Origin: Pseudomonadota bacterium
Lineage (GTDB): Bacteria > Pseudomonadota > Gammaproteobacteria > Burkholderiales > Sulfuriferulaceae
Direction of reading: 5' to 3'
Length of the DNA: 47,918 nucleotides
NCBI GenBank assembly: GCA_021790515.1
Contig: JAJYHV010000065.1
Location: 77,981 to 125,898 of the forward strand
The translations under genes and the position numbers were made by a program. Of the stretch, positions 11,503-20,110 are shown in pieces. The notes below the pieces were generated by a model. It searched no databases. It worked only from the letters and a program-made list of their open reading frames with translations, and was not told the origin of the DNA. The stretch's first letter is position 1, and each line of letters opens with the position of its first letter.

Positions 11503-11694
11503 GCCGCAAGCATCGTTAATTAATAATCGAAATGATGACGTTTTTCAGTAAAAAATTTATTGATATCATGATTTTTTCAAGTCATTTGAAACAGTTTTCA
11601 CGCCTGTCGGCGAAAGTGGCGGGTGATGGTGGCGTTGTTTTGTTTTGGATGCTGCGGGTTTGGTGGCGTGAAAATCGCAAAGCGAGATCATCAC

Positions 11695-12138
11695 ATGACG
11701 GGCAAAATGATAGGGTTGATCGTGGTGGTGTGGTTATGGTTCGTGCCGCAGGTCAAAGCCGATTGCTGGGGCGAGGCGGAAGCGCATTACGGGGTATCAC
11801 GGTTTTTATTGTTGGCGATGGCGCGACATGAATCGGGGCTCAATCCGGGCGCAATCAATCGCAACAACGATGGTTCGTGGGATGTGGGCTTGATGCAGAT
11901 TAACACCAGTTGGTTGCCGGTATTGAAAACGTACGGTGTTGGATTGGCCGATTTGCGCGATCCTTGTGTGAATTTGCAGGTTGGTGCGTGGATACTGGCC
12001 AACAATTTTCGCCGGTATGGCAAAAACTGGCGCGCTGTAGGGGCGTATAACGCCAGAACGGAATGGAAGCGGCAGCATTATGCCCGGCAGGTGTCGGTAC
12101 AGTTCAGGCGCATTGCGCAGGAGTATGGCATTGAATGA
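11695..12138 (+). CDS. VirB1/IagB-like lytic transglycosylase
   Basis: A 147-residue protein with a signal peptide (cleavage likely after VKA near residue 22) and a soluble lytic transglycosylase (SLT) domain. The catalytic glutamate is in MARHESGLNPGAIN; the family motif GLMQINTSWLP and YNAR near the end are clear. Such enzymes open peptidoglycan for the assembly of type III or IV secretion machines or pili. I chose the ATG at 11695 because it begins the signal peptide; a longer reading from 11623 adds an unlikely N-terminus. It is the first gene of the secretion block and overlaps trbB. Confidence 0.88.
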   Translation: MTGKMIGLIVVVWLWFVPQVKADCWGEAEAHYGVSRFLLLAMARHESGLNPGAINRNNDGSWDVGLMQINTSWLPVLKTYGVGLADLRDPCVNLQVGAWILANNFRRYGKNWRAVGAYNARTEWKRQHYARQVSVQFRRIAQEYGIE

Positions 12139-13195
12139 TGATCGACCGGAACAGGACGGCAAAGGGAAAAAGGCGCTCGATGTGCTCCGCGGCGCCATGC
12201 GTCCAATCCTGCCCTATCTGGATGATGAGAGCGTGCAGGAAATCATGATTAATCAACCGGATGACATCTGGATCGAATCGCGTGGCAGCATGCGCCGGGT
12301 AACCGAAACCCTGCAGCCGATCGCCGTGGAAATGGCCATTCGTGCGCTCGCGTCGAGCAATGATAAAAAACAGACGCCCATCATGGACGCTCGCCTGCCG
12401 GGGGTTCGGGTAGCAGCAGTCATGTATCCGATAGCCATTCATGGTCACGCCATGAGCATCCGCAAACATGCGGCACGCCAACTGACGCTGGATGATTACG
12501 TCCAGTCCGGTGCATTTTCAGTCATGGATGTCGCCGAACAACAGGCATGGCTGGCACCCCAGGAACGGCGCCCGAATGCTGACCTTGTCCGGCAGGGCGC
12601 CGATGGTTTGCGCGAGTTCCTGTTGTGGGCGGTATCCAGTCGGCAAAATCTGCTGATTTCCGGTGGCACCAGTTCCGGCAAAACCACATTCACCAATGCC
12701 TTGCTGGCAGTCATGCCGGCGACACATCGTGTCATCACGATAGAAGATACGGCCGAATTGAAGCTCAGCGCGCCCAACCGGGTATCGTTCGAGGCCAACC
12801 GGGAGCTGGATGTCGATATCCGTGCGCTGGTTCGGGTGTGCTTGCGTTTTCGACCTGATCGCATCGTGGTGGGCGAGATTCGAGGCGCCGAGGCATACGA
12901 CCTGGTGGATTCGCTCAACACCGGACATTCCGGCGGGGTCACGACCATTCACGCCGATACGGCAGAATCGGCGCTCGATCGATTGGAAAACCTGATGCGC
13001 ATGTCGCCGGAGGCGGCCAATTTCCCGCAGGCGGCGATGGCGCGCCAGATAGCACAGACGTTTCGTTTCGTCATTCAGGCCGCCAACCTGAGGGGCAAGC
13101 GTGGCCCGGTCCGGGTGGTGGAAGTTCTGGGATATGAAGCAGGGCGGTATCAGTTTCGGGAAGTGTTTTCCCGATTGCCGGGCATGCCGGCGTAG
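12125..13195 (+). CDS. trbB: TrbB/VirB11-type secretion ATPase
   Basis: About 356 residues; a hexameric cytoplasmic ATPase that drives type IV secretion or pilus assembly. It shows Walker A GGTSSGKTT (about residues 180-188), the Asp box ITIEDTAEL, Walker B IVVGEIRG and the His box GHSGGVTTIHA. The start is uncertain: the ATG at 12125 is only 1 base from AGGAG (12119-12123), while a TTG at 12131 is ideally spaced. It overlaps the transglycosylase gene. Length and motifs are intact, so the gene looks functional. Confidence 0.92.
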   Translation: MALNDDRPEQDGKGKKALDVLRGAMRPILPYLDDESVQEIMINQPDDIWIESRGSMRRVTETLQPIAVEMAIRALASSNDKKQTPIMDARLPGVRVAAVMYPIAIHGHAMSIRKHAARQLTLDDYVQSGAFSVMDVAEQQAWLAPQERRPNADLVRQGADGLREFLLWAVSSRQNLLISGGTSSGKTTFTNALLAVMPATHRVITIEDTAELKLSAPNRVSFEANRELDVDIRALVRVCLRFRPDRIVVGEIRGAEAYDLVDSLNTGHSGGVTTIHADTAESALDRLENLMRMSPEAANFPQAAMARQIAQTFRFVIQAANLRGKRGPVRVVEVLGYEAGRYQFREVFSRLPGMPA

Positions 13196-13271
13196 GCGCA
13201 CCAGCAGCAGGCGCATTCGGTATATGAATTTGCTGTGAAACTCGAAAAATCTTGAAGGAAAGGTATGAATT

Positions 13272-13544
13272 ATGGGTACTGGCGCTGTCACTAACATGCT
13301 GTTTCAACCATTTTGTTACATATTGCAAACGTTTTTTGTCAGTCCGCAAATGATCGGCCTCATCGTGGCCATTACGTTGGCAGTCGGGGTGATTGCCTGG
13401 CTGACCGATCTGGGTGGGCGCGGGTTTCCGGTCATGACCTTCCTGGTCATCGCCATCGGTGCCGGCATGCTGCTTGGCATCCCGGCCATCATGTCCGGCA
13501 TGGGTGTTGCCCTGCCGGCCGGCTGCCTTCCTGCCGGCGCGTGA
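13272..13544 (+). CDS. trbC: TrbC/VirB2-like pilin subunit
   Basis: A 90-residue hydrophobic protein with two predicted membrane helices (about residues 27-44 and 53-74) joined by the short LTDLGGRGFP loop, the plan of VirB2/TrbC pilins. It lies between trbB and trbD, where a pilin gene is expected. A classical cleavable signal peptide is not obvious, although the first 20 residues are fairly hydrophobic. AAGGAAAGG lies 8 bases upstream. Identity rests on size, topology and position. Confidence 0.7.
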   Translation: MGTGAVTNMLFQPFCYILQTFFVSPQMIGLIVAITLAVGVIAWLTDLGGRGFPVMTFLVIAIGAGMLLGIPAIMSGMGVALPAGCLPAGA

Positions 13545-13562
13545 TTGCCGCGTTGATCGGCG

Positions 13563-13886
13563 ATGGCGCGCCTTGCCGTACGCAGCACCCGGGTGGCGAC
13601 ACGATTGTCGGAAACCAAAATACTGGCGGGTGGCGAGTTCAAGCTCGTCATCGCTAATGCCGTGTTCGGGTTTCTGGCCATTGCGTTGCTGCACATCTGG
13701 CAGTACCTTGTCGTGGTGGTGATCTTGCACCTGTTGTTGGTTCTGGTAGCCAAAGCCGACCCGAAGGCGCGCGAGATTTATCTCGAATACGCCAAGCAGG
13801 GCGATTGTTATACCCCTTGGCCGCAAACCCGTCGTCAATCATTCAACCGTCGCCCGTTGGGCTTTGGCCGCGACCAGGAGATATGA
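13563..13886 (+). CDS. trbD: TrbD/VirB3-like inner-membrane protein
   Basis: A 107-residue protein with a hydrophobic pair of helices (about residues 27-62) followed by a conserved-looking tail ADPKAREIYLEYAKQGDCYTPWP, matching the VirB3/TrbD plan. VirB3 proteins work with the VirB4 ATPase in the inner-membrane complex. It starts 18 bases after trbC and ends just before trbE. Confidence 0.78.
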   Translation: MARLAVRSTRVATRLSETKILAGGEFKLVIANAVFGFLAIALLHIWQYLVVVVILHLLLVLVAKADPKAREIYLEYAKQGDCYTPWPQTRRQSFNRRPLGFGRDQEI

Positions 13887-13887
13887 C

Positions 13888-16347
13888 ATGAGCGAGCCGT
13901 CCTGGCGCGGGTTTTCCGAGTTGCTACCCTGGATGTTTACCTTTGGTCAAGATGACGTGGTGGTCAACAAGGACGGCGGCCTGTCTGCGGTGTTTGAACT
14001 GAATGGCATTGATGTCGATGGCGCGGTGTCTGCCGAAGTGGGTTATTGTTTGCAGGCATTGGACAATGCTTATGAACTATTCAAGGATAGTCCGTGTATT
14101 TTTACCTGGCTGGTACATCGGCGGCGGGTGACTTATTATCCGGAAGGGCGGTTTCCCGATCCATGGTCGGCCAGAATTGACGAGGAGCGGCGCAGGCAGT
14201 TTGCTTCCGGTCGCCATTACATCAACCGGCATTATCTGGCAGTAACATTGGTGGCGGACAAAGGCCTGGGTAACGTGTCCTCCCGCATGGCGTTCTATCT
14301 TGGACAAGGACTGGGTGTACTGCCCGCGTTATTGCGTACAGGATTGTCCTATTTGCGCGGTAGTGATGCCTTTGTATATTCGGCGCAGGAATTGACCGCC
14401 AGAACAGACATTTTCCAGACGCTGCTGACGCGTTTTGTCGAACGATTGGCGGGCATCGGACTGTACCGGGTGGAGGGTGACGCATTGCGCGGATTTTTGC
14501 GCCGTTGCGTCAATCCGCAGTCAACACAGGAAGAGTTGGTGGCCATGCCCTTTCTGGACACCCATGTGCCGGATGTTGAACTGGTGGTGGAGCAAGACCG
14601 GTTACGTTTTGGTGAAAATTGCGTGGTGACCGGCATGTCATTGAAAGAACCGCCACGGGTGACCAGACAGGGGTTGTTCGAGCACATGCTGGCCCTTGAT
14701 GGCGAGCTGGTGTTTTCGCAGAATTTTCGTTTTGCCGCCAAGAAGGAAGTCATGCAGTATTTGGTGAGCGTGCGGCAGTACAACGATTTGCTCAAATACT
14801 CGCCCATGACCTGGGTGTACCTGTCGATGAACAAAAACGCCGACGCTCGCGCGAATGATGCCCGGCTGGAAGCGGCGGAGTCAGCCCATGTCGAGAGCAA
14901 TCGTGTTGAAATGAACAGCGCCTATTATGGCTGGTATGGCGCACAGGTGATGGCAATCGGGCAGACAGAAGCGGAGGCAGAGCGGGTGCTGGCAGCCATG
15001 GCCGGCGCACTGGAAGTCAATAATTTCACCACGATTCGTGAGCGCTTGCATCTGTTGTCAGCCTTTGCCGGCGGGATTCCCGGCATGGTCAGCATGCAGA
15101 AACGCTGGTTCATGCTGGAACTGGCGTCGTTATCCGATTTGTCGCCTGTCCGTACGATTGACCCCGGTCGCCTGGTCAATGACTATCTTTCCGAACAGCG
15201 TGGCGTGGTGACGCCGGCACTGATGTTGTTCGATACGGAATACAACACCCCGTATTATTTCAATTTGCATGTCGGTGATCTGGGGCATGCGTTGGTGGTC
15301 GGTCCTTCGCGTTCCGGCAAATCGACCGGTATGAATATCCTGATTGCCCAATTCAGAAAATACCAACCGTGCCGGATCATCATTTTTGACAAAGATCGCT
15401 CTTGCCGGATTGCGACCTTGATGATGGGCGGCGAGCACATCGATATTGCTGACCGGACACGCAGCCGCTGGAACCCGTTGAGCCTGCTCGGCGATGCTTC
15501 TGCGCTGGAATGGCTGGCTTCATGGATAGAGGGACTCATTTCTTACCGGGGATACCGTTATGGTGCCGACGATGTAAAGGATGTGTGGCGCGCCTTGCAG
15601 GGGTTGGCTGCGCAGGACGCTGCGCATTGGACCTTGGGGCATCTGCACGCCATCTTGTCGCCGGCGCTGCAAAACGAGCTTGACGCCTGGGTCGGCAATG
15701 GCGCGTTGGCACATTATTTCGATAACCGCGAAGATACTTTTTCCATCTCCGATTTCAGCTGTATCGAAATGGGAGAGATTTTGCAAAAACAGCACGTAGC
15801 TCGCGCATTTATGGACTATGCATTTTTTCGCATCTATAAATTGTTGCGCAATAACAGTCGTGGCGTGGTGCCGACACTGATTTATATCGAAGAGTGTTGG
15901 TTCATGCTGGAAAACCCGTACTTTGAACAGAAAATTCGTGACTGGACCAAAACCTTCGCCAAACTGGTGGCGCAACTGGTGATGGCAACCCAGTCACTGG
16001 AAGACATTGCCGAATCGCGCGTGTTTTCCAGTTTGCGTGACAACATCCAGACCCGGATTTATTTGCCGAACAGCAACGCGGCTTCGCCATTGATGTTGCC
16101 CTTGTATACCGAGCAGTTCGGCCTGCATGCGGATCAGGTGGCACAGATTGCCAATGGAACGCCCAAACAGGATTATTTCATCCAGCAGCCAGACATATTT
16201 CGTCGCGCCATCATGCGCATTGACCCGTTGAGCCTCGCCGTGGTGCGTTCGGATTCGTTGGCACAGGCCGTGTTTCAGCGTCATTACACGTCTGGCGCTG
16301 AAAACTGGCGGGAAAACTACGTGCAGGAATTGTTGCGACCACATTGA
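13888..16347 (+). CDS. trbE: TrbE/VirB4-type secretion ATPase
   Basis: About 819 residues, normal for CagE/TrbE/VirB4 ATPases, the largest energy component of type IV secretion. Walker A is GPSRSGKST (about residues 472-480), Walker B is the LIYIEECWF region (~664), and KLVAQLVMATQSLEDI is the typical motif after it. The N-terminal half is the VirB4 domain that contacts VirB3 and the membrane. I used the ATG at 13888 because CAGGAG sits 7 bases upstream. The gene is full length with no frameshift, so the block is not simply decayed. Confidence 0.94.
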   Translation: MSEPSWRGFSELLPWMFTFGQDDVVVNKDGGLSAVFELNGIDVDGAVSAEVGYCLQALDNAYELFKDSPCIFTWLVHRRRVTYYPEGRFPDPWSARIDEERRRQFASGRHYINRHYLAVTLVADKGLGNVSSRMAFYLGQGLGVLPALLRTGLSYLRGSDAFVYSAQELTARTDIFQTLLTRFVERLAGIGLYRVEGDALRGFLRRCVNPQSTQEELVAMPFLDTHVPDVELVVEQDRLRFGENCVVTGMSLKEPPRVTRQGLFEHMLALDGELVFSQNFRFAAKKEVMQYLVSVRQYNDLLKYSPMTWVYLSMNKNADARANDARLEAAESAHVESNRVEMNSAYYGWYGAQVMAIGQTEAEAERVLAAMAGALEVNNFTTIRERLHLLSAFAGGIPGMVSMQKRWFMLELASLSDLSPVRTIDPGRLVNDYLSEQRGVVTPALMLFDTEYNTPYYFNLHVGDLGHALVVGPSRSGKSTGMNILIAQFRKYQPCRIIIFDKDRSCRIATLMMGGEHIDIADRTRSRWNPLSLLGDASALEWLASWIEGLISYRGYRYGADDVKDVWRALQGLAAQDAAHWTLGHLHAILSPALQNELDAWVGNGALAHYFDNREDTFSISDFSCIEMGEILQKQHVARAFMDYAFFRIYKLLRNNSRGVVPTLIYIEECWFMLENPYFEQKIRDWTKTFAKLVAQLVMATQSLEDIAESRVFSSLRDNIQTRIYLPNSNAASPLMLPLYTEQFGLHADQVAQIANGTPKQDYFIQQPDIFRRAIMRIDPLSLAVVRSDSLAQAVFQRHYTSGAENWRENYVQELLRPH

Positions 16348-16364
16348 GCACAAGGAGATTGAGC

Positions 16365-17255
16365 ATGGACATGAGCAGGATACCGCCACGGCACAGCAAG
16401 CCGTTCGTCGTGCTGAATGGCGGAACACAAAAGCCGGCCCGCCGTCGGAAAAGCCTGGCACGCCTGGTCGGAATGGCCGGATTGCTGAGCCTGATCTGGG
16501 CGCCGGCCAGCCGTGCTGATTTTTGGGGCGACTTTTGGACGTACATGAATTATCTGGAGTTGGTTACCAGTTACGTGCAGGAGGCTGAAACTGCAGTCAA
16601 TACCCAAATGGCGCAGGCGCAGGGTTATGTCTACCAGTTACAGAACCTGCAGAATGCGCCGGCGGCTGATCTGGCGCAGGTCATCGCGCCCTATCAGCAG
16701 GCCATCAGCAATTACGGGCAGTTCCTGTCGGCCGCACAGAGCCTGCAGGCGGTGATCGGCCAGAACGAACAAATGCTGACCCAGCGTGGTGCGGAAATAC
16801 AGACCCTGACCAATGGCGATGCGACCCAGTACTGGCAGATGGAGGCGCAACTGGCGCAGCAGCAAGGAGGCATTCATCAGGCGGCCTTGCAGCGGGATCA
16901 GGCTTCTCTGCAGGACCTTGCCAGCAAGGCGAACGCCTTGCAGAATGCTGCGAATAATTTGCCCAGTACCGGCACAGTGGCCGGTCTGGACAAGCTGAAC
17001 ACCACGCTGACGACGGTGGCTGAGGAAGCGCTTAACCTGAACCGTCAGATGGCTCAGGCTGATCTGGATCGCAATGCTGCTGCGACCTTGACCCAGCAAT
17101 CCCTGCAAAACCAGGCGCAGGCGAACAATGCCGTGTCAGCGCAGGATGCTCTGGATGCTACGGCGGCCATCCAGAGCCTGCAGGAACAGATCAACACGCC
17201 ATCCGGATATAACCAGCAACAGATCGAACAGAACGCATGGGCAACCGGTCCGTGA
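16365..17255 (+). CDS. trbJ: TrbJ-like (VirB5-type) periplasmic protein
   Basis: About 296 residues: a long N-terminal basic stretch, a signal or anchor helix near residues 37-54, then a mature region very rich in Gln, Ala and Asn with long predicted helices. FWTYMNYLELVTSYVQEAETAVN resembles the start of mature TrbJ proteins. TrbJ/VirB5 proteins are thought to be minor pilus components. AAGGAGA (16353-16359) precedes the ATG at 16365. Its place between trbE and trbL supports the call. Confidence 0.75.
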   Translation: MDMSRIPPRHSKPFVVLNGGTQKPARRRKSLARLVGMAGLLSLIWAPASRADFWGDFWTYMNYLELVTSYVQEAETAVNTQMAQAQGYVYQLQNLQNAPAADLAQVIAPYQQAISNYGQFLSAAQSLQAVIGQNEQMLTQRGAEIQTLTNGDATQYWQMEAQLAQQQGGIHQAALQRDQASLQDLASKANALQNAANNLPSTGTVAGLDKLNTTLTTVAEEALNLNRQMAQADLDRNAAATLTQQSLQNQAQANNAVSAQDALDATAAIQSLQEQINTPSGYNQQQIEQNAWATGP

Positions 17256-17407
17256 TCGGTGGACGTGCGTGCAGGCTTGCAAAAAACATCGATGAATACT
17301 TGTCGGCGCGACAAGAAGGGCGAGGAAAGGTGAACCCTAAAAAAGGCTTGAAAAAAGGCATGCCGTTATGCCATTCCGTTGGAGAGACGCATGAGGCGGG
17401 AAATTCC

Positions 17408-17497
17408 ATGAAAACCCTGCAACAGGAGGCGAGCATCCCGCCGAGTCATGATTGGCGGCAGATTGGGCGGCAGAAGGTCTGGGAGGGGCACCGCTGA
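17408..17497 (+). CDS. Very small ORF at the trbK position
   Basis: A possible 29-residue peptide starting MKTLQQEASIPPSHDW, preceded by GAGGCGGG and overlapping the next start as TGATG. In trb clusters the small trbK gene lies at this place, but this ORF has no lipobox and no recognised family. The rest of the 17256-17496 gap shows nothing I can name. Confidence 0.3.
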   Translation: MKTLQQEASIPPSHDWRQIGRQKVWEGHR

Positions 17498-17757
17498 TGT
17501 TGATGGTATTGCCTTTGGCGCTCTGGTGGGCGGCGGATGAAGACCGGTTTTGCCTGTTGCGGCAATTGGTAAGTTATCGAAATCTGGATGAGGAACAAAG
17601 GCCGCATTACCGCGTACCGCGCAAGCTGAGGCGCCGCCTGCGCTCCCGGTTGGCGCTGGCGTTGGTCATGGCGGCGATCGACAAGCCGGCGCAGTTTTTC
17701 TGGCTGATGTTGAGCGGGTTCTGGTTGTTGATTGTTTTTCTGAGTCGGATTCGCTGA
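17497..17757 (+). CDS. Small membrane protein between trbJ and trbL
   Basis: An 86-residue protein not assigned to a family. It has a hydrophobic N-terminus (MLMVLPLALWWAA), a basic middle (HYRVPRKLRRRLRSRL) and a strongly hydrophobic C-terminal helix. Start is the ATG overlapping the upstream stop, with GGGAGGGG 8 bases before it. By position it may replace TrbK (entry exclusion), but its topology differs from the TrbK lipoproteins, so this is only a guess. Confidence 0.6.
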   Translation: MLMVLPLALWWAADEDRFCLLRQLVSYRNLDEEQRPHYRVPRKLRRRLRSRLALALVMAAIDKPAQFFWLMLSGFWLLIVFLSRIR

Positions 17758-17771
17758 AAGGCAGGTGCGCC

Positions 17772-19196
17772 ATGAGATTCTGGATCATTGCATTGTTGCT
17801 GGCATCGCTGTGCGGAATCGCTCCGGACAGTTTGGCCGCGCCTGCGCCCGGTCCGGCAGCGACGACCATTCCGACCATTTCGAATCCGGCGTTCAAACAG
17901 GCGGTGGTCGCCGCGTTGAATGGCCTGCATACGGCGGGTTACGCCTTGCGAGGCAAACTGGTCCAGACGGGCGAAGAGTTGCTGGCGGTATTCCTGGCCC
18001 TGTCACTGGGTTGGTCGATCTTTAATGGATTGATGGCGCAACGACTGGATGCGATGTTTAAAGACATCATCAATGAACTTATCATTGCCTTGATCGCGCT
18101 GGTGTTATTGTGGACATGGACCGGGCCGGGTCAGGTGGGCAGCATGAGCATGTCGAATTTTCTGACCCAGGGGTTAAATGGACTGGTGGCGCCATTCATT
18201 TCGCCTGTCGCAGCGGGACCAAACCAGGCGGTGACGACGCAAGTGGCCGAAATGCAGATCATCGATGATTGCTTTGCGGCTGCGGGCAACATATTGAGCG
18301 TTATTCCGAAGATATGGCAGGGCACGACGGTGGGTGGGACCATCGTGAATATGGCCGAGAACGCGTTGCAAGGCATTTTTATCGGCGAGACGACGGGTCC
18401 CGGGTTTGCCATCGCCTACATCATGCTGGTAATCGTCATTTCATTTATTTGCGCCCTGACAGTCTTGACCGTCATGCTGTTTGGCCTGTTATACATCAAT
18501 CTGGGTGATTTCATCATTTATGTTGGTCTTGCCATTGGCCCGGTGTTTGTGGCGACGCTGGCATTGCCACCCATTCGGCAAATGTTTACCCGCTGGCTGG
18601 ATTTCGTGCTGACAGGGGTTTTTTATAAAGTGATCGCGGTTGTCGTGGCGGCTTTCCTGCCAACATTATTTGCAGTCATCAGCACGAATTCGACCACGGT
18701 GGTCGCGCTGAATAGCGCCTGGATCTGGGATATCGCAAAAAACATACTCGGGTTTCTGCTCTACGGCGCAATCATGTTGTTCTGGAGCGGATTTACCCTG
18801 TTTTTGATCAAACAGGTGCCAACTTTGGCGCACTCGCTGATTGGCGGCACAAACCTGCATGTTACCCATCTTGGCGCCGTCATGCCTCCGCTTGCCAAGA
18901 AGGCGGTCTCGGTTGTCAAAAGTGTTGCAATGGCCGGGTTGGGGGCTGCGGGTGGTGTGGCGGGCGAAGCAAGTGTGACAGCGGGTGGGGCGAGTGTGGC
19001 GGCGGGTGGGGCTGACGCGAAGACGGAATATCGGGAAATGACCAAGCAGGATTTGGCCGAAAACCGGCACAAAACAGGCGCTGCACAGGAGTTTCGTGAT
19101 CGCATGCACAAGATCAAGCGCAGGAAGGCGCTGGCTTCGATGAAAGGCGGGCTCACTGACGACGAGGGGGACAACGAGGAGGAAAACGAGGAATGA
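17772..19196 (+). CDS. trbL: TrbL/VirB6-type polytopic membrane protein
   Basis: A 474-residue protein with a signal peptide (ends near SLAA, residues ~21-24), several membrane helices between about residues 60 and 350, and a soluble C-terminus rich in Gly/Ala, then Lys/Arg and finally Glu (last residues NEEENEE). This is the TrbL/VirB6 plan, the inner-membrane channel component of type IV secretion. It is the last secretion gene here; in the Ti-plasmid and Tn4371-like order trbF, trbG and trbI would follow, but the next gene is a lipid acyltransferase. Confidence 0.87.
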   Translation: MRFWIIALLLASLCGIAPDSLAAPAPGPAATTIPTISNPAFKQAVVAALNGLHTAGYALRGKLVQTGEELLAVFLALSLGWSIFNGLMAQRLDAMFKDIINELIIALIALVLLWTWTGPGQVGSMSMSNFLTQGLNGLVAPFISPVAAGPNQAVTTQVAEMQIIDDCFAAAGNILSVIPKIWQGTTVGGTIVNMAENALQGIFIGETTGPGFAIAYIMLVIVISFICALTVLTVMLFGLLYINLGDFIIYVGLAIGPVFVATLALPPIRQMFTRWLDFVLTGVFYKVIAVVVAAFLPTLFAVISTNSTTVVALNSAWIWDIAKNILGFLLYGAIMLFWSGFTLFLIKQVPTLAHSLIGGTNLHVTHLGAVMPPLAKKAVSVVKSVAMAGLGAAGGVAGEASVTAGGASVAAGGADAKTEYREMTKQDLAENRHKTGAAQEFRDRMHKIKRRKALASMKGGLTDDEGDNEEENEE

Positions 19197-19315
19197 AGCG
19201 ATGATGGCTGCGACGGATTAATGGTGGATTGTCTTCAATTTGTCATTGATTTTTCATTGTCTCGTCATCTGTTTTGATTATTGTAATGACTCATCAGGTT
19301 TTGTTATGGGGAGTC

Positions 19316-20110
19316 ATGATGATGGAGCACACGCAGGTTTCATTTCCGGGTTCGTTATCTCGGGTTGAGAAGGCATCACGCGCGCGCAGTAACGCGTTGT
19401 CTGTTGCACTGGCACGTAATATGGAAGAAGTGCGCGAGGCTCAGCGCTTGCGCTTTCAGGTTTTTGCCGAGGAAATGGGGGCGCAATTGGTGTCTGCTTC
19501 CAGCGGGCTGGATCAGGATGAGTTTGATTCGGTGTGTGATCACCTGCTGGTGCGAAATACCGGCAGTGGTGAAGTGGTGGGGACTTATCGTATTTTGTCC
19601 CCGGAGCAGGCGGCCAGAATCGGCGGTTATTATTCGGAACAGGAATTTGATTTGGGGCGACTGACCCCCTTGCGTTCAGGCATGGTGGAAATCGGTCGCT
19701 CCTGTGTGCATCCGGATTATCGCGGTGGCGCTGTGATTACGCTGTTGTGGTCCGGGTTGGCCGATTATTTGCGCCGTCACGACTATAACTATTTGATGGG
19801 TTGTGCCAGCGTGGACATGGCCGATGGCGGACATACGGCGGCAAATCTGTATCATAAATTACACGCGGAAGTTTTGAGTCCGGTGGAATGGCGGGTGTTT
19901 CCTCGCGTGCCATTGCCGCTGTTCCGGTTGGGGAACGACGCCAAGGTAAGTACGCCGCCCTTGATTAAGGGTTATTTGCGCGTGGGCGCCTATATTTGTG
20001 GCGAGCCAAGCTGGGATTCGGAGTTCAATTGTGCGGACTTCATGATGTTGTTGTCAGTCAAACAGATGAACGAGCAGTATGCGCGTCATTTCATGAACAA
20101 GGCCGCTTGA
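19316..20110 (+). CDS. olsB: OlsB-like ornithine N-acyltransferase
   Basis: About 264 residues; a GNAT-fold acyltransferase of the OlsB/hemolysin-like family that transfers a 3-hydroxyacyl chain from ACP to ornithine, giving lyso-ornithine lipid. Recognisable parts are LRFQVFAEEMGA, the FDSVCDHLLVRN segment, GTYRIL, EIGRSCVHPDYRGG (acyl-donor site) and YLMGCASVDM. Three tandem ATGs (19316, 19319, 19322) follow GGGGAG; I used the first. The downstream gene is a PlsC/OlsA-type acyltransferase starting at the stop codon, which supports an ornithine-lipid pathway rather than an unrelated hemolysin. Confidence 0.85.
   Translation: MMMEHTQVSFPGSLSRVEKASRARSNALSVALARNMEEVREAQRLRFQVFAEEMGAQLVSASSGLDQDEFDSVCDHLLVRNTGSGEVVGTYRILSPEQAARIGGYYSEQEFDLGRLTPLRSGMVEIGRSCVHPDYRGGAVITLLWSGLADYLRRHDYNYLMGCASVDMADGGHTAANLYHKLHAEVLSPVEWRVFPRVPLPLFRLGNDAKVSTPPLIKGYLRVGAYICGEPSWDSEFNCADFMMLLSVKQMNEQYARHFMNKAA

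Follow-up and report, generated by a model that had tools for sequence, protein, structure and literature searches.

The window analysed here, a stretch of 47,918 nucleotides, is the end of one contig (C18) of a Sulfuriferulaceae genome assembly of 1,995,863 bases (80 contigs, 96% complete), and between positions 11623 and 19196 its forward strand carries a block of genes for a type IV secretion system (T4SS), referred to below as locus 1. An earlier note on this DNA had described VirB1-like, TrbB-, TrbC-, TrbD-, TrbE-, TrbJ- and TrbL-type genes in that order, followed by olsB. Our analysis agrees, with the names TrbC and TrbJ resting on position and context and with an OlsB-type acetyltransferase gene at 19274, and adds to the seven listed genes a small open reading frame (ORF) between TrbJ and TrbL. 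The features are as follows.

11623..12138, + strand: VirB1-like lytic transglycosylase (SLT); PF01464, 9e-23
12080..13195, + strand: VirB11/TrbB ATPase; PF00437, 2.5e-38
13272..13544, + strand: VirB2/TrbC-like pilin with two hydrophobic segments and no leader peptide; named from its position between VirB11 and VirB3
13563..13886, + strand: VirB3/TrbD; PF05101, 2.4e-8, and the TrbD model at 4.1e-6, below cut-off
13864..16347, + strand: VirB4/TrbE ATPase; PF19044, 1.8e-8; likely ATG start at 13888 from the start context
16344..17255, + strand: VirB5/TrbJ-like protein; named from position, with a signal-peptide-like N terminus by eye
17452..17757, + strand: small ORF (orfX) between TrbJ and TrbL; profile match in related loci, no Pfam match
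17772..19196, + strand: VirB6/TrbL; PF04610, 1.7e-4, 21.9 bits, under the cut-off of 25.9
19274..20110, + strand: OlsB-type acyltransferase, a flanking gene outside the machine; PF13444, 1.4e-37

The Walker A motifs of both ATPases are intact by eye (GGTSSGKTT and GPSRSGKST), as the note had stated. VirB11 is likely to start at 12125, just after an AGGAG, and scores 253.5 bits with the NCBIfam VirB11 model TIGR02788, above its cut-off of 249.95, against 228.7 with the TrbB model TIGR02782, which is under the cut-off of 304.55. For VirB4 the best NCBIfam model is TrbE PRK13873 (352 bits, 5.8e-105, below cut-off), and PF03135 was sub-threshold in one scan and above its cut-off in another. Pfam and NCBIfam models gave no match for either the VirB2 or the VirB5/TrbJ gene. 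The first owes its name to its position, a two-peak hydropathy profile and 14-28% alignment to annotated TrbC/VirB2 proteins of plasmids; the second to its position and a sub-threshold DUF4141 match of its counterpart in genome G025. A profile comparison (hhalign) of VirB5/TrbJ with its Azonexus counterpart found nothing, and a search of PDB sequences with the VirB5 alignment gave 0 matches. The profiles used on related loci, that of orfX included, were built from those same loci. The majority of 51 loci from other genomes show the order VirB11-(2)-3-4-5-6 again, so the arrangement is not due to chance; VirB1 at the head of the block was observed in no loci other than the nine of the same clade that were read to that point (the window and L077-L084). 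Ti-type systems have the order trbB-C-D-E-J-(K)-L, followed by F-G-(H)-I. The first part of that order is matched in the window and the second lies on another contig.

The note's statement that the block lacks an outer-membrane core is right for the block itself, but VirB8, VirB9 and VirB10 are encoded on contig C26 of the same genome, where the CagX/VirB9 and TrbI/VirB10 families match above their Pfam cut-offs. These matches rule out a genome without any core and agree with the note's suggestion that the block is one half of a split system. The note had named a trbF-G-I set together with a relaxase elsewhere in the genome as grounds for refutation, and the first half of that condition is found here. 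The second half, locus 2 (C26:17571-34001), contains the following.

C26:17571-18221: VirB8
C26:18218-19096: VirB9
C26:19084-20703: VirB10
C26:20700-21608 (L006:6701-7609): second VirB9-like protein (VirB9b), with a VirB9 C-terminal domain and a LysM domain, both above cut-off
C26:21615-22301: TcpQ-like protein; Pfam 25.1, just under the cut-off of 27
C26:22285-23961: secretin
C26: PilO-like and PilP-like proteins, from position and likeness to relatives, PilO without a model match
C26:25710-28049: extension-type ATPase
C26:28033-29250: platform protein
C26, between the platform protein and the PilT/PilU-family ATPase: prepilins
C26:31458-32543: PilT/PilU-family ATPase; NCBIfam 348.3 against a cut-off of 319.1 (336 in G010)
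C26:32540-33532: further prepilin-like protein

A type IVb (R64-like) pilus set is thus present, with secretin, TcpQ/PilL, PilO, extension ATPase, platform protein and prepilin (in the related genome G008 both TcpQ and PilO are above cut-off), as are the parts of a minimal Gram-negative T4SS, namely VirB4 and VirB9 plus VirB10 with VirB8. Together, loci 1 and 2 are a VirB1-6/8-11 system with a type IVb pilus. No VirB7 lipoprotein was recognised in this genome. A lipoprotein form of VirB9 in place of VirB7 was considered and rejected, a possible lipobox (LSGC, by eye) being found in one of eight species and absent from seven other carriers. The second VirB9-like proteins vary by species, carrying the C-terminal domain with LysM or with TcpQ-like or OmpA-like stretches that fall below cut-off; examples lie at L057:9636-10757 and L070:11360-12295. 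LysM was found in VirB9b of this genome and of G006, and among relatives of VirB9b OmpA is matched below threshold in L109 and by weak NCBIfam hits in L118. Proteins of 374 aa in G025 and of 311 aa in G005 fuse the VirB9 C-terminal domain with TcpQ, with CagX above and TcpQ below the Pfam cut-off in both; the G005 fusion is 42% alike to the TcpQ-like protein of C26, which backs its TcpQ part.

The two loci travel together within the genus. VirB4 orthologues (at least 60%) occur in nine of 18 same-genus genomes, the window's own counted, and VirB10 orthologues (at least 50%) in eight of these nine carriers, the exception being G015, an assembly that is 77% complete. In G010 both loci lie on a single contig, 165 kb apart. 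This layout and the co-occurrence of VirB4 and VirB10 in eight of nine carriers argue that C26 is not contamination, which the single G010 contig excludes. The core is followed by pilus genes in seven of eight cases; the G009 contig ends in VirB9b and that of G002 in the secretin. The same core-less block recurs in related species, a check that the note had proposed. Locus 1 adjoins olsB-plsC-apaH in the window, G005, G006, G010 and L126, but is placed elsewhere in G008 and G004. Among G000 (the window's own genome), G005, G006 and G010, the pair G005 and G010 are mutually nearest in seven of eight proteins (VirB4, OlsB, ApaH, VirB8, VirB9, PilQ and, by a hair, VirB11), with PilR deviating. 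Such a pairing across locus 1, locus 2 and the flanking genes looks as vertical descent would make it.

Selection was assessed as the ratio of nonsynonymous to synonymous rates (dN/dS), calculated by the Nei-Gojobori method with our own script. Between G008 and G004, seven genes of locus 1 give ratios of 0.05-0.18 and six of locus 2 (VirB8 is not among them) give 0.04-0.51, the top value belonging to VirB9b, whose called ORF overlaps virB10. Between G000 and G015 it is 0.043 for VirB4, 0.218 for VirB5, 0.221 for part of VirB6 and 0.347 for VirB1, with 0.064 for GlmS. All 19 comparisons are below 0.6.

The note had also claimed that relaxase and coupling protein are lacking, and as far as tested this is so: in this genome PF07514, PF12696, PF02534 and PF03432 gave no match at E 0.001. 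A search of the genome therefore yields equivalents of trbF, trbG and trbI on C26 and nothing from the traG/virD4 and relaxase families tested. The note's proposal of a pilus or envelope machine that works without a core for DNA transfer fails on the core, which exists, and stands on the DNA-recruiting parts, which were not found. The relaxase families searched were PF07514 (TraI_2), absent from all nine same-genus carriers, and PF03432, absent from this genome. The coupling protein family PF12696 is matched in three of the nine carriers (G005, G008 and G015); the six without a match include this genome and G010, which is 99% complete. A profile made from the family's own TraD proteins and run on 16 genomes gave in this genome only a short match (E 0.007), and in the carriers other than G005, G008 and G015 likewise short matches (about 35-50 positions, E 0.001-0.01) in long frames, which are probably FtsK-like proteins. 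A profile search of this genome for a counterpart of the third, TraD-bearing locus of Ferrovum-type genomes found none. The type IV coupling protein (T4CP) gene of G005, G008 and G015 (583-606 aa) is touched by the TraD profile at E 1e-13 to 1e-15 and encodes a different type, 21% alike to the family's TraD by alignment. In all three (L140 in G005, L142 in G008, L141 in G015) a helix-turn-helix gene adjoins it, and an integrase lies nearby, Pfam-matched in G008 and as a same-looking ORF in G015; the G005 contig is short. This gene group might use the resident T4SS. A full-length TraD was found in G001, which lacks this VirB4 orthologue (L188, G001:C1:405000-424000, with an FlhC-like ORF nearby by eye), and its locus is likely to be a separate mobile element.

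VirB2 is leaderless in all nine same-clade loci (the window and L077-L084), starting 6-15 residues before a PFC motif; each of the nine starts is preceded, at a distance of 0-11 codons, by a stop in the same frame, which leaves no room for a hidden leader. Of 43 distinct loci outside the clade, 42 have a VirB2 that is extended N-terminally, with 23 residues or more ahead of the matching point and, as judged by eye, a hydrophobic stretch at the end of the extension; the remaining one, L085, was unread. A clear first reading of the leader was obtained for 29 of 53 loci (nine same-clade and 20 others, where L058 duplicates L090); of the other 24, 21 were read through a PWE/PWD motif, L088 by eye and L193 from an alignment with plasmid TrbC/VirB2 proteins. 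Perhaps the leaderless VirB2 is inserted like ATP-synthase subunit c; a search by title found no literature on VirB2 leader loss or YidC insertion. Within the genus VirB2 shares 80-85% with its counterparts in G004 and G008 (84-85% over 75 aa in one comparison) and VirB1 is 58-66% alike to G004, G005, G006, G008 and G010 and 84% to G015. VirB5 is the least alike, at 34-40%; one comparison gave 36-40% to G004, G005, G006 and G008 and 87% to G015.

Our preferred explanation, to which we give a confidence of roughly 0.55, is that the two loci encode a T4SS that has been domesticated, no longer conjugates, lacks VirD4 and is tied to a retractile pilus, with contact to surfaces or other cells as its most likely function. 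What the analysis shows are the parts, the two loci, their co-occurrence, the selection on them and the lack of the transfer genes tested; the function is a prediction. A conjugative element of the MobH/TraD plasmid family would have settled in the chromosome and later lost its transfer module, the remaining genes being kept by selection. VirB3, 4, 6, 8 and 11 would form the inner-membrane complex and VirB9 and VirB10 the outer-membrane core, while VirB9b, through peptidoglycan binding, and the TcpQ-like protein would link both complexes to the pilus secretin; such a tie of core, wall and secretin is suggested by the VirB9-TcpQ fusions and the LysM domains. The two pilus ATPases would extend and retract the pilus, and the fast-changing VirB5 would face the target. 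Since VirD4 is missing, recruitment of cytoplasmic substrates is unlikely and none is expected in this model, and the retention of pilus and tip parts suggests contact or uptake. The role is proposed by analogy with the Trw system of Bartonella, which, having lost its coupling protein, now serves in adhesion. Trw resembles the present system as a conjugation-derived T4SS without a coupling protein and with a fast-changing VirB5 (TrwJ), but it has amplified VirB2/VirB5 genes and a single locus, serves bacteria that infect mammals, and comes with no type IV pilus operon in the parts of the source used here (PMC2883598).

The proposed origin draws on one-region relatives on plasmids. Azonexus hydrophilus unnamed1 (NZ_CP151407) and Paraburkholderia aromaticivorans pBN2 carry VirB11-2-3-4-5-6, VirB8-9-10-VirB9b-TcpQ and pilus genes in one run, and Cupriavidus necator pBB2 carries the same two groups as this genome as adjoining divergent runs. 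The full order in one of them is FlhC-MobH-TraD-DUF4400-VirB11..6-AAA-VirB8-9-10-VirB9b-TcpQ-PilN-O-P, and that of a second is similar; the annotation gives mobH plus traD in two plasmids and a TraI-domain gene plus traD in pBB2. An ATPase of the Azonexus plasmid is 36% alike to the PilT-type ATPase of C26. These MobH/TraD plasmids of Betaproteobacteria encode TraD, DUF4400 and either MobH or a TraI-domain protein, with FlhC in addition on the Azonexus plasmid and pBN2, and their VirB2 has a leader, whereas this genome has a leaderless VirB2, two distant chromosomal loci and no transfer module that we could find.

Several observations weigh against this explanation. Only two relaxase families were covered, with MobF, MobQ and MobV not among them, and in a genome that is 96% complete and in 80 contigs a coupling protein could lie in a gap. 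VirB6 changes as fast as VirB5 (32-36% over about 340 aa to G004, G005, G006, G008 and G010). The pilus genes beside the core in G008 and G004 are of another, R64-like type, and the scan of them found no PilT-type ATPase; the pilus part is therefore exchangeable. The link to a pilus is not universal either, since eight of nine Ferrovum-type or similar genomes (G061-G069) have the VirB8-9-10 trio without recognised pilus genes; the G062 contig ends in VirB10, and G063 has pilus genes beside the core. Finally, MOB-suite in PLSDB types all three plasmids as 'non-mobilizable', so that their conjugation is inferred from gene content.

A more specific version, which we put forward tentatively as a less probable idea, is that T4SS core and type IVb pilus form a single machine whose exit is shared, serving to pull in DNA or surfaces and not to export DNA. 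The VirB9b C-terminal domain would sit in the core ring, its peptidoglycan-binding domain and TcpQ would hold the secretin, the retractile pilus would replace the T4SS pilus, and VirB2 would stay membrane-bound as a leaderless two-helix subunit. The VirB9-TcpQ fusions offer a testable physical link between the outer-membrane core of a T4SS and the secretin of a type IV pilus. A 2025 review draws attention to T4SSs that lack VirD4 and raises the question whether Ptl, ComB and Trw make pili able to extend and retract (PMC12857230); the present system is chromosomally fixed in environmental bacteria, has a PilT-type ATPase of its own next to it and can be compared with relatives on plasmids that keep the set in one region. 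With respect to the pilus, R64-type thin pili share the secretin, PilO, T2SSE ATPase and T2SSF, and in G008 also PilS, PilM and a shufflon-type PilV, and this genome differs in adding the PilT/PilU-family ATPase. In R64 itself the thin pilus goes with a transfer system of the I type. G008 has next to its core a different, R64-like pilus operon, with TcpQ, PilO, PilS, PilM and the PilV gene (L063:6346-7698) in a chromosomal operon next to VirB8-10.

The confidences that we attach to the alternatives are not mutually exclusive. The main rival, compatible with the architecture favoured above and in our judgement possible though doubtful, is ComB-like DNA uptake, in which the retractile pilus and the VirD4-less T4SS bring double-stranded DNA to the periplasm and ComEC moves one strand inside. 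The PilT/PilU-family ATPase in the operon and the absence of a detected coupling protein in this genome would suit it, and Helicobacter pylori ComB provides a precedent of a T4SS without VirD4 working with ComEC, although ComB lacks VirB5 and VirB11 (PMC12857230, in part), both of which are kept here. The ComEC family PF03772 is present in nine of nine carriers (two partial) but also in seven of nine non-carriers of the genus, the other two of which are 75-80% complete; ComEC is therefore not associated with the system and had to be discarded as a mark of carriers. G025, which is 100% complete, and G064 have the system without a ComEC match. DNA uptake is thus possible and is not favoured by the distribution of ComEC.

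Working conjugation, with relaxase and coupling protein elsewhere or with the machine in the service of small elements that supply a coupling protein themselves, is unlikely. The distinct T4CP gene in the shared gene group of G005, G008 and G015, with an integrase nearby in G008, speaks for it, as do the PF12696 matches in eight of ten split-type genomes of other lineages (G061-G070), one match lying, in seven of these genomes (G064-G070), in the TraD-like gene near metG/dcd; six of nine carriers lack a PF12696 match, these six give only the short, probably FtsK-like TraD-profile matches, and the PF07514 relaxase is found in none of the nine. We regard as quite unlikely a VirD4-independent export of proteins in the style of Bordetella Ptl or Brucella VirB, in which substrates reach the periplasm by another route and leave through the core. 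VirB1-6 and 8-11 without a coupling protein would allow it and both systems are precedents without VirD4 (PMC12857230, in part), but no effector gene was recognised in the ORF lists beside either locus, no effector-directed search having been made. Decay of a conjugative element is very improbable: descent from a mobile family and the transfer module that was not found would fit, but the listed genes are open in this genome, the set recurs in several species, and the dN/dS values refute decay in the main. The recent truncation that the note had raised is not supported, as the core-less block recurs in related species and dN/dS is 0.04-0.35 for the block genes compared.

The wider family was surveyed by a VirB4-alignment scan of named genomes, which gave 51 loci, 49 of which kept VirB4 in the annotation (L112 and L121 were left out). 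VirB6 is present in 44 of the 49, and in eight of the 44 VirB8-10 (VirB9-10 in L097) start 0.3-3.0 kb past VirB6; the other 36 have no VirB8-10 there, 28 of them with at least 3.6 kb of sequence after VirB6. A TraI_2 (MobH-type) relaxase and TraD-like genes lie in the one-region loci L118 and L109, with a TraI_2 match in L124, and PF07514 is found in one of ten other split-type genomes (G061-G070; a partial match in G063), in G025 and in all six genomes tested that have one-region loci (G071-G076). In a quick VirB4 tree of 53 rows (the window, L077-L124 and four others, L125-L127 left out), in which the 'split' label also covers loci on short contigs, the one-region label needs four changes, two of them forced by starred branches; long branches meet in this tree, so the number of splits is unsure. 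G025 looks like an intermediate: on one of its contigs about 8.6 kb, holding genes for a Na/H exchanger, Nramp and DsbB, separates the two blocks, and another contig carries a group of the TraI_2/TraD/DUF4400 kind.

In Ferrovum VirB/D4 systems VirB4 belongs to the same family (33-38% in records titled Ferrovum), but there is no VirB1, and the core trio stands without recognised pilus genes. Three VirB/D4 loci are described for Ferrovum JA12 and F. myxofaciens is described as without VirD4, and the authors take these genes as a trace of conjugation (PMC4725956, PMC4886054, in the parts used here). VirD4-less T4SS genes in Ferrovum are thus already published; for Sulfuriferula, a literature search by title and abstract start found no report on this machine. 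We find three PF12696 matches in F. myxofaciens P3G (G067), against the published 'lacks D4'. Reading a T4SS locus by locus, or equating T4SS genes with conjugation, can mislead. A 291-310 aa protein beside TraD in Ferrovum-type genomes was considered as a decayed MobH and is not claimed as one (E 5e-4 over 64 residues for one copy, 0.02 for another, no Pfam match). In G064-G070 (L143-L149) a TraD-like gene near metG and dcd, by eye, forms a third chromosomal piece, and in G065, the sole genome scanned for this, Pfam supports FlhC and FlhD beside it. The two halves of Cupriavidus necator pBB2 (L193) lie side by side as divergent runs, a layout that could make splitting easy.

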